Shown one piece after another: positions 2,467 to 10,222 of a DNA stretch of 21,418 bases. The DNA lies in contig CAMWWF010000009.1 in the NCBI GenBank assembly GCA_947177885.1, positions 1 through 21,418 of the forward strand, given 5' to 3'. The notes below the pieces were generated by a model. It saw nothing but the letters and a program-made list of their open reading frames with translations. It was not told the DNA's origin and ran no database searches. The DNA comes from an uncultured Lachnospiraceae bacterium (GTDB taxonomy: Bacteria; Bacillota_A; Clostridia; Lachnospirales; Lachnospiraceae). The position numbers and the translations under genes were made by a program. The stretch's first letter is position 1; each line of letters starts with the position of its first letter.

Positions 2467-2658
2467 CTACAGAGCCCCGATAGCTGACATCAGCGCATCT
2501 ATGTCGATCCCATGCACCATAGCTGCCTCTTCCAGGGATTCCCCCTGTGCGGAAGGACATCCCAGACAGTGCATTCCCGCATCCATCAGTACAGGAGCCA
2601 CATCAGGGTTGGTTCTCAGGATCTCACCGATCGTCATCTCTTTCGTTATTCCGCTCAT
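2467..2658 (-). CDS. DUF1858 redox-disulfide domain protein
   Basis: This 63-aa protein ([20 protein letters not shown]..., then [18 protein letters not shown]) has the full DUF1858 / TIGR03980 fold length. It carries the hallmark CxxC (Cys31, Cys34) after a conserved Met-His and the typical ending [17 protein letters not shown]. The family is called hybrid-cluster-protein-associated redox disulfide domain; its biochemical role is not established, but a thiol redox or sensing function is usually assumed. The start is supported by AAAGGAG about 9 bases upstream and a near-consensus promoter. It is transcribed divergently from the PFL locus. A short GCTCT-GTAG-AGAGC-TTTT hairpin overlaps its stop codon and may terminate transcription. 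Confidence 0.88.
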
Positions 2659-2986: not shown

Positions 2987-5026
2987 ATGAAACCAATTGA
3001 GACAGATTTCGTGCGTGGCAAATGGGACAAAGAAGTCAATGTTCGCGACTTCATCCAGAGAAACTATCATCCCTACGACGGTGATGACTCTTTCCTGGCA
3101 GGTGCCACCCAGAACACAAAGGACTTGTGGGCTATGGTTCTTGACCTGCAGAAGAAGGAGAGAGAAGCAGGCGGTGTTCTTGACATGGATACCAAGGTTG
3201 TTTCTACCATTACTTCCCATGGCCCCGGATACCTTGACAAGAGCAAGGAGACCATCGTAGGCTTCCAGACTGACAAACCTTTCAAGAGATCCTTACAGCC
3301 TTACGGCGGTATCCGTATGGCAGAGAAGGCTTGCTCTGACAACGGTTATGAGGTTGATCCTGAGATTTCCGAGTTCTTCTCCACACACAGAAAGACTCAC
3401 AACGCAGGCTGCTTCGACGCTTACAATCCCGAGATGAGAGCCTGCCGTTCTTCCCATATCATTACCGGTCTCCCCGACGCTTATGGCCGCGGCCGTATCA
3501 TCGGTGACTACAGACGTGTGGCTCTGTACGGTATCGACAGACTGATCGAAGACAAACAGGCACAGAAGGATTCCACTGGACGTGTTATGACAGACGACGT
3601 GATCCGTCTTCGTGAAGAATTATCCGAGCAGATGGTTGCTCTGAAGCTGATGAAGGAAATGGCTGCTTCTTACGGCTGCGATATTTCCAAGCCCGCTACC
3701 AACGTTCAGGAGGCGATCCAGGCTACTTACTTCGGATACCTTTGCTCCGTAAAAGAGCAGAACGGCGCTGCCATGTCCCTTGGACGTACTTCCACCTTCC
3801 TTGACATCTATGCTGAGAGAGACCTGGCTAACGGTACTTTCACAGAGCAGCAGATCCAGGAGTTCGTTGACCACTTCATCATGAAGCTGCGTCTGATCAA
3901 ATTCGCACGTACACCTGAGTACAACCAGATTTTCGCAGGCGATCCGGTATGGGTAACCGAGTCCCTCGGCGGTGTTGGCGTTGACGGACGTCACATGGTT
4001 ACAAAGATGAGCTTCCGTTATCTGCACACCCTGACCAACTTAGGTCCTTCACCCGAGCCGAACCTGACTGTTCTCTGGTCCACAAGACTTCCCGAGAACT
4101 GGAAGAAATACTGCGCTAAGATGTCCATCCAGACCTCTTCCATCCAGTATGAGAATGACGACCTGATGAGAGCTACCCACGGTGACGACTACGGTATCGC
4201 ATGCTGCGTATCCTCCATGGTTATCGGTAAGGAAATGCAGTTCTTCGGCGCTCGTGCCAACGTGGCTAAGTGTCTGCTGTACGCTTTGAACGGCGGTGTT
4301 GACGAAGTTACCAAGAAACAGGTTGGTCCCAAGTATCGTCCTGTTACAGGTGATGTTCTCGACTATGATGATGTAATGAGCAAATTCATCGATATGCTGG
4401 AGTGGCAGGCAGATGTTTATGTAAATACTCTGAACATCATCCACTATATGCATGACAAGTACTGCTACGAAAGAGCAGAAATGGCTCTTCATGACAGAGA
4501 TGTCAAGAGATACTTCGCAACCGGTGTTGCAGGTCTTTCCATCGTGGCTGACTCCCTTTCCGCGATCAAGTACGCAAAGGTTGAGGTTGTTCGTGACGAG
4601 GATGGTATCATTGTAGACTTTAAGACCACCGGCGAGTTCCCCAAGTACGGTAATGATGATGACCGTGTGGATGAGATCGCTCAGGAGGTTGTTCATAAGT
4701 TCATGACCGCCATCAGACGTCATCACACCTACAGAAATGGTGTTCCCACCACTTCCATCCTGACCATTACCTCCAACGTTACCTACGGTAAGGCAACAGG
4801 TAATACTCCCGATGGACGTAAGAAGGGCGAGCCTTTCGCACCCGGTGCCAACCCCATGCACGGCCGTGATACTCATGGTGCGGTAGCATCCCTGTCTTCC
4901 GTATCCAAGCTTCCTTTCAATGATGCGCAGGATGGTATTTCCAATACCTTCACCATCATTCCCGGAGCTCTGGGCAAAGAAGATCAGGTATTTGCCGGCG
5001 ATATCGAGCTAGACTTGAATAAATAG
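2987..5026 (+). CDS. pflB: Pyruvate formate-lyase, catalytic barrel subunit lacking the glycyl-radical domain
   Basis: This 679-aa protein matches PFL over the ten-stranded barrel and interconverts pyruvate + CoA and acetyl-CoA + formate. The adjacent catalytic cysteines are Cys406-Cys407 in [11 protein letters not shown] (E. coli Cys418/419). The adjacent pair separates PFL from diol- and choline-type radical lyases, which have one cysteine. Other family blocks are [49 protein letters not shown] and [17 protein letters not shown]. The reading frame then ends with [12 protein letters not shown], where ordinary PFLs run straight into the C-terminal radical domain (about 80 more residues). No RVSGYAV glycine motif is present, so alone it cannot be active. 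That domain is encoded at 5489-5731. The start is set by AGGAGG 9 bases upstream. Codon use is strongly biased, as expected for an abundant enzyme. Confidence 0.95.
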
Positions 5027-5085
5027 ATTGACGGCAACAAGATATCGACGTGCGATACTCGAACTTGGCTTGAATAAATTGAGAA

Positions 5086-5127
5086 GCCCTTGATATCAGG
5101 GTGTCATGTATGCCCTGATATCGGGGC
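5086..5127 (+). promoter_or_regulatory. Strong intercistronic hairpin downstream of pflB
   Basis: GCCC-T-TGATATCAGGG pairs with CCCTGATATC-GGGGC to give about 15 base pairs with one bulge and an 11-base loop (5102-5112). No U-run follows (CTGACAGG), so it is not a standard terminator. It more likely protects or marks the 3' end of the pflB message, or attenuates partially. A second perfect palindrome, TCCTGAAATTTCAGGA (5151-5166), lies immediately before the ribosome-binding site of the next cistron. Confidence 0.65.
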
Positions 5128-5181
5128 TGACAGGAACAGGTAATGAAAATTCCTGAAATTTCAGGATAGAGAGGATATACA

Positions 5182-5388
5182 ATGGACGAGAAAAATATGA
5201 TTGATGACCTTGTAAAGATGCTGGATTCCGGCATGACCGAAGGCGTAGGACATATCAATGTGGACTATGACGATCAACAGGCGGATCAGTCTAAGAACGT
5301 TCAGACAATGGGCTGTACGGACTGTTCCAGAACTCCGTTGGCCTGTAGTGTACCTACTCTTCATCAGGGACTGGATGACTACCGGTAA
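5182..5388 (+). CDS. Small PFL-tail-like protein with CxxC-x6-C motif
   Basis: A 68-aa ORF preceded by AGAGAGG about 8 bases upstream. Residues 7-29 (IDDLVKMLDSGMTEGVGHIN and following VDY) line up without gaps with residues 8-30 of the radical subunit next door ([20 protein letters not shown] and VNV). After that the two differ entirely: instead of the RVSGYAV radical loop it has a polar Q/D/N linker and then MGCTDCSRTPLACSVPTLH, with Cys45, Cys48 and Cys55. So it looks like a duplicated docking segment carrying a cysteine motif in place of the glycine radical. A metal, Fe-S or thiol function is possible, and so is a placeholder or regulatory subunit for the barrel. None is proven. I do not recognise a named family. 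Conservation of the ORF should be checked, but the similarity, spacing and ribosome-binding site argue that it is a real gene. Confidence 0.75.
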   Translation: MDEKNMIDDLVKMLDSGMTEGVGHINVDYDDQQADQSKNVQTMGCTDCSRTPLACSVPTLHQGLDDYR

Positions 5389-5416
5389 TTCAGCCCCAAA
5401 ATACAACAGATATACC

Positions 5417-5442
5417 CGTTTGGGGAATTTTTTCCCCAAACG
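5417..5442 (+). promoter_or_regulatory. Perfect intercistronic hairpin before the radical subunit
   Basis: CGTTTGGGGAA and TTCCCCAAACG form an uninterrupted 11-bp stem around a TTTT loop. The following sequence is CAATATATTATT rather than a U-run, so read-through is expected. It may act as a processing or stability element setting the level of the downstream cistron. Confidence 0.7.
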
Positions 5443-5488
5443 CAATATATTATTAAAACAGCAATGATCATATAAGGAGGATATCATT

Positions 5489-5731
5489 ATGGCAGCAAGC
5501 GACGCACAGGTTAACAACCTTGTAAACTTATTGGATGGCTACGCTACAAAGGGCGGACATCACCTTAACGTAAACGTACTGAACAGAGATACTCTGTTAG
5601 ACGCTCAGAAGCATCCCGAGAACTACCCTCAGCTTACGATCCGTGTATCCGGATACGCAGTTAACTTCATCAAGTTGACTCCCGAACAGCAGGCTGACGT
5701 TATTTCCCGTACCTTCCACGAGGCGATCTGA
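5489..5731 (+). CDS. Stand-alone glycyl-radical domain subunit of pyruvate formate-lyase
   Basis: An 80-aa protein equal to the last 80 residues of ordinary [23 protein letters not shown], then [31 protein letters not shown] and [15 protein letters not shown]. Gly55 in RVSGYAV is the residue that carries the radical (E. coli PFL Gly734). The resemblance to the E. coli spare-part protein GrcA/YfiD is clear, but here the partner barrel has no such domain of its own, so this is an essential subunit rather than a repair piece (inference). The start ATG has a textbook AGGAGG (5475-5480) 8 bases upstream, so it is translated independently. It would be the substrate of the activase at 9464-10222. 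A bidirectional-looking terminator follows. Confidence 0.93.
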
Positions 5732-5754
5732 TCGTCAAGTTCTTCTGTAGCAAA

Positions 5755-5789
5755 GCCCCGTTCGACAATGTCGGACGGGGTTTTCGTCT
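5755..5789 (+). terminator. Terminator of the PFL locus
   Basis: The stem GCCCCGTTCGAC / GTCGGACGGGG (one T-G wobble, loop AAT) is followed by TTTTCGTCT. Read from the other side it also ends in CTTTG, so it may serve the convergent glycosyltransferase unit as well. Confidence 0.88.
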
Positions 5790-5906
5790 GAGCTGTCCCG
5801 ATATCCGGGAATCCCTCTGATGTTCTCTTTTCAATATCTGTCAGGAACCGTCTGCCAAATATATTACACTCAAATATAACATATCACAGCAAGTCACCGG
5901 AACCCT

Positions 5907-9420: not shown

Positions 9421-9463
9421 AAAAAAGATGATTGGATGATCATTTCGGAAGGAGATGCCATTT

Positions 9464-10222
9464 ATGCAAGGAAGAATTCATTCATTAGAAAGCTTCGGTA
9501 CCGTAGACGGTCCCGGAACGCGTTTTGTTGTTTTTGTGCAGGGATGCCCCATGCGCTGTGCCTATTGCCATAATCCCGATACCTGGGAAATGAACGGCGG
9601 CACTCTGATGGAACCCTCCTACATCATCGAACAATATGAAAGAAACAGTGCGTTTTACGCTAACGGAGGCGGCCTGACCGTTACCGGCGGGGAACCATTG
9701 ATGCAGATTGATTTCCTGATCGATCTGTTCACTCTGGCAAAACAGCGCAATATTCATACCTGTATCGATTCTTCCGGCATTGCCTACAACCCTGACAATG
9801 CCGCCCAGCGCGAGAAACTGGACAGGCTTATGAGTATGACCGACCTCGTTATGCTGGATATCAAGCATATCGACCCGGAAAAGCATAAGGATCTTACCCG
9901 ACAGCCTAACACCAATATACTGAAATTTGCCGGGTATCTCAACGAAAAGCATGTGGACATGTGGATCCGCCATGTGGTGGTTCCCGGTATCACGGATGAC
10001 GAAAAATACCTCTTTGATCTGGGATACTTTATCGGACAATTCAGCAACCTGAAGGCTCTGGATGTGCTGCCCTATCACACCATGGGCGAATCAAAATACG
10101 AGAAGCTGGGCATGGAATACAGGCTTGCAGGCGTACCCGCCATGGACAAGACATTGCTTTTAGACAAAAAGCAGGCCATTTTAAACGGTATAAAAAAGCG
10201 GCGGGCTGAAAGCGGAAAATAA
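9464..10222 (+). CDS. pflA: Pyruvate formate-lyase activating enzyme (radical SAM)
   Basis: 252 aa. The radical-SAM signature CPMRCAYC (Cys28, Cys32, Cys35) binds the [4Fe-4S] cluster that cleaves S-adenosylmethionine. It follows ESFGTVDGPGTRFVVFVQG, diagnostic of PflA. The SAM-binding block GGGLTVTGGEPLMQ and the later DLVMLDIKHID, RHVVVPGITDDE and DVLPYHTMGESKY complete the family pattern, and the length is normal. It abstracts hydrogen from the radical glycine, here on the separate 80-aa subunit (5489-5731). The start is taken at 9464 because AAGGAG ends 9 bases before it; the ATG at 9455 touches that site. It is separated from the PFL genes by the two glycosyltransferase genes and has its own promoter. 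Confidence 0.96.
   Translation: MQGRIHSLESFGTVDGPGTRFVVFVQGCPMRCAYCHNPDTWEMNGGTLMEPSYIIEQYERNSAFYANGGGLTVTGGEPLMQIDFLIDLFTLAKQRNIHTCIDSSGIAYNPDNAAQREKLDRLMSMTDLVMLDIKHIDPEKHKDLTRQPNTNILKFAGYLNEKHVDMWIRHVVVPGITDDEKYLFDLGYFIGQFSNLKALDVLPYHTMGESKYEKLGMEYRLAGVPAMDKTLLLDKKQAILNGIKKRRAESGK

Follow-up and report, generated by a model that had tools for sequence, protein, structure and literature searches.

Pyruvate formate-lyase (PFL), described in textbooks as a single chain, is one of the main steps at which anaerobic fermentation is sensitive to oxygen. We analysed a stretch of 21,418 nucleotides from an uncultured Lachnospiraceae bacterium of the gut (contig CAMWWF010000009.1 of assembly GCA_947177885.1; hereafter the window), whose genes, judged from their sequences, encode a PFL in pieces: a barrel, a separate glycyl-radical subunit of the NCBIfam family GrcA3, and a small module with a pair of cysteines (Cys), which has its own gene here and forms a tail of the barrel in relatives. 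Taken as a whole, the locus rather probably encodes a PFL that is natively split into three protein parts, together with its activase, and in which the Cys module acts as a redox placeholder.

A barrel, a radical subunit and a third gene between them

The barrel gene (positions 2987 to 5026, forward strand) was identified from its open reading frame (ORF) and its profile matches as a formate C-acetyltransferase of 679 aa without the radical domain. Its translation contains the active-site Cys-Cys pair (IACCVSS) and ends at GDIELDLNK, with the glycine-radical motif found not in this chain but in a gene for 80 aa, as an earlier note made from this sequence alone had proposed. Both the ORF and the extent of the match to TIGR01255 (1092.5 bits against a cut-off of 994.2, up to profile position 665 of 744) confirm that description, and the 80-aa protein takes up profile positions 663 to 743. 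On the E. coli PFL structure 1h16, the barrel aligns until chain position 681 and the 80-aa protein from position 680, and because the two matches adjoin near position 680, the barrel and the 80-aa protein make up one PFL. E. coli PflB (TIGR01255; 1h16, 2pfl) is alike in its barrel over the full length, its Cys-Cys pair and its activase, but holds the radical domain in the same chain, whereas the match of the window's barrel stops near its position 681. The adjacent active-site columns are both Cys in 59/59 split rows and 9/9 intact rows.

The radical gene (5489 to 5731, forward strand) encodes 80 aa that include RVSGYAV, with matches to NF038360 (GrcA3), 6owr and 1h16. It is preceded by TAAGGAGG, a putative ribosome-binding site, in agreement with the claim that the RVSGYAV region is a cistron of its own with its own ribosome-binding site; by a loose pattern, a Shine-Dalgarno (SD)-like site stands before the radical gene in 80/80 of the related loci described below. 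The protein narrowly passes the GrcA3 cut-off (160.6 against 158), does not pass that of GrcA/YfiD (TIGR04365, 99.8 against 170) and does not reach the GrcA2 cut-off in NCBIfam. Its match to YfiD (6owr) begins at residue 19 of 80, so that the split lies near the start of the GrcA/YfiD domain, where the earlier note had put it, but approximately rather than exactly there. The GrcA3 family is named for an autonomous cofactor, and here its member is apparently the sole PFL radical domain. Y06I is a protein of phage T4. YfiD/GrcA and Y06I are likewise stand-alone radical domains acting on a PFL barrel, but they repair intact PFL cleaved by oxygen (PMC8683613 and PMC12338860), and most split genomes here show no intact PFL to repair.

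The earlier note described a two-part split and had the barrel and the radical gene right, but it overlooked a conserved ORF between them, here called mid (5182 to 5388, forward strand; 68 aa), which joins a radical-domain-like N-terminal half to a C-x6-C-x-x-P tail. A protein search gave 1744 homologues of mid; a Pfam scan of 56 mids found 0 families, and the window's mid scores above no Pfam or NCBIfam cut-off. Among the matches listed, 238/240 mids carry C-x6-C-x-x-P (of the two exceptions, one is a fragment), 107/240 have three Cys and 26/240 have four Cys in one chain, and the invariant positions across 56 aligned mids are D15, H24, C48, A54, C55, P58 and D65. NF038360 matches the N-terminal half weakly (E 0.018 for the window's mid, 0.0012 for one relative, none for the mid of genome G123). 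In the other direction, in 28/30 split genomes in which the mid profile A1 finds no mid, the mid profile A3 matches the radical gene (about positions 1-37; E 5e-7 to 6e-4 in the individual genomes); 5 intact PFLs are likewise matched in their radical domain. By these comparisons, the first ~30 residues of mid resemble the beginning of the radical domain. The linker between the two halves is extended by tens of residues in P0343 and P0360, which fits a tethered tail. A search of PDB sequences with the mid profile returned nothing relevant among 4 hits at E up to 1, and no [4Fe-4S] accessory subunit; in viral contigs, 0 mids were confirmed among 95 pattern matches. In two loci (L127, 2488-2655, and L128, 2405-2620, in barrel-strand coordinates) the mid stops early, after GCTDCAK or GCTTCSQ, so that the Cys motif lacks its second part; these may be natural variants or damaged copies.

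Related loci were collected with the mid ORF as the query, because intact PFLs cannot swamp a mid search, and the best 80 of 432 species-genome stretches encoding mid were compared. The same split, which the earlier note had suggested looking for in related genomes, is present throughout: barrel, mid and radical gene follow in this order on one strand in 80/80 loci, and the barrel ends at query residue 677-679 in all of them (in many, its 5' side is missing at a contig end). The gap between barrel and mid measures 13-198 nt (median 53) and that between mid and radical gene 12-323 nt (median 72.5), with an SD-like site before mid in 77/80 loci by the same loose pattern. Acetatifactor muris DSM 23669 is among the independent assemblies that share the arrangement, the PFL halves being separated by an entire gene. 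Nonsynonymous (dN) and synonymous (dS) divergence was computed for the two small genes in six loci; dN lies far below dS for both, with the mid dS saturated in two. For mid, dN/dS comes to ~0.06 in the comparisons with L009 and L022 and to 0.13 with L014, and in the other three loci tested its dS is very high or saturated.

Split genomes and the placement of the cysteine module

In a family sample of 250 Lachnospiraceae genomes (the family of A. muris), 96 have a split PFL, 94 an intact PFL and 6 both, and 90/96 split genomes show no intact PFL. These counts cover relatives, the window's own genome lying outside the sample; the 96 include 2 pieces cut by contig ends, and they leave out G087 and G166 as too fragmentary. 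The first survey was made among the matches listed, down to 1100 bits, and in a few genomes not every first-look candidate was scored; a search of the complete match lists of 185/250 genomes added one split genome, G115, which had earlier been classed as intact-only. Of 13 genomes picked from the 80 loci, 12 have no PFL above the cut-off other than the split one; in the remaining genome, contig ends interrupt it. A class-wide sample has 148/291 genomes above the cut-off, with 3 split among the matches listed (at least ~1117 bits), and many split barrels score under ~1117 bits, below those class-wide matches. The split PFL is very probably functional, and the radical subunit is apparently obligatory in the organisms that have it, an impression of the earlier note that is borne out in the relatives. 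The full-length pflB elsewhere in the genome that the note had named as a point against itself turned up in 6/96 split genomes and in none of the other 90. Additional radical genes, located on a different contig, were seen in 3/13 of the chosen genomes and in 15/46 genomes of the family sample; a GrcA3-like gene of this kind, 91-93% identical to the window's, was seen at L155, L156 and L157 (G005:C12, G006:C44 and G008:C64). The second GrcA3-like gene in some split genomes is perhaps a true spare.

The A1 profile is too narrow for judging the absence of mid, and A3 was used to retest the 30 split genomes in which A1 finds none, as well as 89 genomes then classed as intact-only. A mid gene is present in 66 genomes, all of them split (65 by A1, G123 by A3), and a full-length mid match in 0/88 intact-only genomes with either profile. 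The 96 split genomes comprise 66 with the mid gene (in trans), 29 with a Cys-bearing barrel tail (in cis) and 1 (G254) with neither; G115 and those 30 split genomes in which A1 detects no mid were inspected singly, and they hold the 29 tailed barrels, the unlinked mid of G123 and G254. The 29 cis barrels end in a short C-terminal tail with at least two Cys, for example DCKDLACNIPNIEDSIDNE or DECAGSCAIPNLTEGLDLNE. No tail has a single Cys; there are either none or two and more: 131 loci have 0 (a few genomes being counted twice among them) and 24 have 2 or more, with tails missed by the pattern read by eye. Conversely, Cys stands at the barrel end in 0/52 mid-bearing genomes examined (of the 66) and in 0/80 related loci. 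The pattern C-x(n)-C-x-x-P fits 24/28 tails tested, and the A3 mid profile matches the barrel end of G089 at positions 57-78 (E 1.6e-5). Cys spacing in the cis tails varies from 1 to 7, some having only CC or CxCC, and the N-terminal half of mid is absent from them. Because the mid/tail pattern tracks the split genomes, with mid in 0/88 intact-only genomes, the Cys module appears to belong to the split enzyme and is, with high probability, one of its parts. Linkage of mid to the barrel is not required, because mid stands apart in G123, G014 and G248; pflA lies between the barrel and the radical gene in G123 and G248.

A barrel tree of 73 rows, built by a quick method with the tail left out and 9 sampled intact copies included, places the split and the sampled intact copies on opposite sides of one branch (Shimodaira-Hasegawa-like approximate likelihood-ratio test, SH-aLRT, 98). 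By parsimony, this tree has 8 switches between the cis and trans forms, with 4 to 5 of them forced by well-supported branches; 20/70 inner branches are weak, and some of the intact rows have long branches. That the motif has repeatedly moved between a protein of its own and the barrel end suggests that the cis and trans modules act at the same place, and it is possible that similar Cys tails were invented independently. A Cys at A. muris barrel position 376 is present in 59/59 split barrels and 3/9 intact copies; it is a possible candidate for a partner of the Cys module.

The closest solved chains to the barrel are PDB 38la_A and 38lb_A ("Formate acetyltransferase", 2026 PDB), both of which end near the split point: 38la has 687 aa and ends ..LGKED, and 38lb has 739 aa and continues ..GECDMCEMKELD.., 44 residues beyond the window's match. 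Compared by chain sequence alone, they look like split barrels, whether the cut is natural or engineered, and they indicate that such barrels have already been worked on. A fold search with the model of a tailed barrel returned ordinary glycyl radical enzymes as its leading matches, and 38la and 38lb are not among the matches listed (library to April 2026). The PFL split as such is already noticed, in the NCBIfam family GrcA3 and these two 2026 PDB chains. The mid/tail module and its cis/trans exchange appear undescribed within the open-access PMC papers searched; the search listings and passages of PMC5476646, PMC13252398, PMC9403272, PMC12338860, PMC12590467 and PMC12288474 contain no description of a split PFL, of GrcA3 or of the Cys module.

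A proposed redox placeholder weighed against other roles

In the mechanism that we propose, PflA would install the radical on GrcA3 docked to the barrel, the GrcA3 loop would reach the Cys-Cys pair, and catalysis would proceed as in a normal PFL. Oxygen would cleave the radical subunit, and only the 80-aa protein would have to be replaced, for which the radical domain may be detachable. The Cys module would sit at the barrel edge, at the GrcA3 docking site, as a redox-responsive placeholder, covering the vacated active site either as a reduced dithiol or, under oxygen, as a disulfide or mixed disulfide. With the return of reducing conditions, it would yield to GrcA3 or help to seat it. A placeholder or gate is favoured because the Cys pair is conserved (and never single in the tails), its cis spacing is loose, and the trans form has a radical-domain first half; the loose cis spacing also speaks against a rigid metal site. 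Such a role is quite possible, if somewhat short of probable. The wider proposition, that the radical domain is a consumable subunit in much of Lachnospiraceae and the mobile Cys-pair module an oxygen-responsive lock on the vacated site, is more speculative and on balance doubtful. If true, no redox-gated glycyl radical enzyme would have been known before this one, and the module would be the first accessory subunit of a PFL. The arrangement suggests a cell that treats the fragile radical end as a replaceable part, and it makes the unnamed Cys module a specific, testable candidate for the assembly and protection of split PFL.

Several observations weigh against the placeholder. Two or three Cys are equally suited as metal ligands; one split genome of the 96 (G254) does without a Cys module, and two mids (L127, L128) end after the first CxxC. 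The link between mid and the tails has its own exceptions: the mid profile reaches 1/29 cis tails (G089), the likeness of the other, short tails being one of motif, 4/28 tested tails misfit C-x(n)-C-x-x-P and the 29th (G115) misfits by eye, and mid lies apart from the barrel in G014, G248 and G123. The AlphaFold models are of low confidence and do not place the module, with a predicted local distance difference test (pLDDT) score of 57.8 overall for mid and below 50 over residues 584-697 of a tailed barrel (55-row alignment).

A recognition or assembly element that replaces residues 696-733 of E. coli PFL and recruits GrcA3 and/or PflA, with a structural Cys pair, is an unlikely alternative role for the module. 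YfiD docking and activation need residues 696-733; an engineered E. coli PFL truncated at residue 695 is able to catalyse the reaction after activation, with undetectable YfiD binding, and removal of 696-759 abolished detectable YfiD binding and lowered radical installation 32-fold (PMC8683613). The natural split may therefore need a compensating element, and in evolutionary terms it answers the engineering question of whether a barrel without 696-759 plus a separate radical domain is workable. That stretch is missing from the split barrel and mid has a homologous N-terminal half, but GrcA3 has a complete radical domain, including a strand of its own, and within the module conservation is highest at the Cys pair; the N-terminal half is absent in the cis tails.

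Benzylsuccinate synthase (BSS) and 4-hydroxyphenylacetate decarboxylase (HPAD) have small Cys-bearing extra subunits, as mid would be, encoded as BssB/BssC and HpdC. A metal-binding accessory subunit of their [4Fe-4S] type, regulating radical transfer to the active-site Cys, is quite an improbable identity for the module. It is of the same size class as those subunits (7-10 kDa; PMC12590467), it has two invariant Cys with the invariant His24 and Asp, and 107/240 mids among the matches listed have three Cys. The BSS and HPAD subunits bind [4Fe-4S] clusters, whereas mid has only two invariant Cys with one invariant His, the cis spacing runs from 1 to 7 with some tails only CC or CxCC, and no sequence relation was detected in the PDB. 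According to PMC12590467 (2025), most glycyl radical enzymes, PFL included, are single-polypeptide homodimers, and more accessory subunits may await identification; the Cys module looks like such a further subunit.

It is very improbable that the cell uses another PFL or PFOR, with a decayed pflB as the barrel and the radical gene as a spare part of the usual sort. An intact PFL stands beside the split one in 6/96 genomes, and the counts cover relatives rather than the window's genome, but the three genes are kept in 80/80 loci, 12/13 relatives' genomes are split-only, and in the six loci the two small genes, for which divergence was computed, have a dN far below their dS (some dS saturated). 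Because order is conserved in 80/80 loci and dN is far below dS, we rejected both decay and a misassembly, and a single frame broken by an assembly or sequencing error, which the earlier note had raised against itself, found no support and is practically inconceivable with 80 loci, independent assemblies such as that of Acetatifactor muris DSM 23669 and a whole gene between the halves.

Neighbouring genes and intergenic hairpins

The gene for PflA, the PFL-activating radical SAM enzyme (9455 to 10222, forward strand; 255 aa; TIGR02493, 289.2 bits against a cut-off of 231.75), lies ~3.7 kb from the radical gene in the window and at most 600 nt from it in 56/80 loci. On the other side, a divergent gene (2467 to 2658, reverse strand) encodes a DUF1858/hybrid-cluster-associated redox disulfide protein (PF08984, TIGR03980). 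Such a gene stands divergently within 1.5 kb upstream of the barrel in 39/45 loci with enough upstream DNA, an association that makes its product a possible redox partner.

No tRNA was found in the window, Rfam gave none at gathering scores, and the promoter and terminator pattern scan resembled shuffled sequence (14 vs 11.9 and 8 vs 7.1 sites). The forward strand has a strong predicted RNA hairpin in each gap between the PFL genes, at 5085-5128 between barrel and mid (stretch 5075-5145 folded: -29.4 kcal/mol, z -4.4) and at 5415-5442 between mid and the radical gene (stretch 5386-5488: -23.4 kcal/mol, z -3.75). A terminator-like hairpin with a T-rich 3' side follows the radical gene at 5752-5784 (stretch 5729-5800: -27.8 kcal/mol, z -4.3), its stem absent from the list of the consensus terminator scan. 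Among the relatives' gaps of at least 50 nt, z falls below -3 in 20/44 between barrel and mid and in 16/52 between mid and the radical gene, and the intergenic hairpins may set different amounts of the PFL parts.

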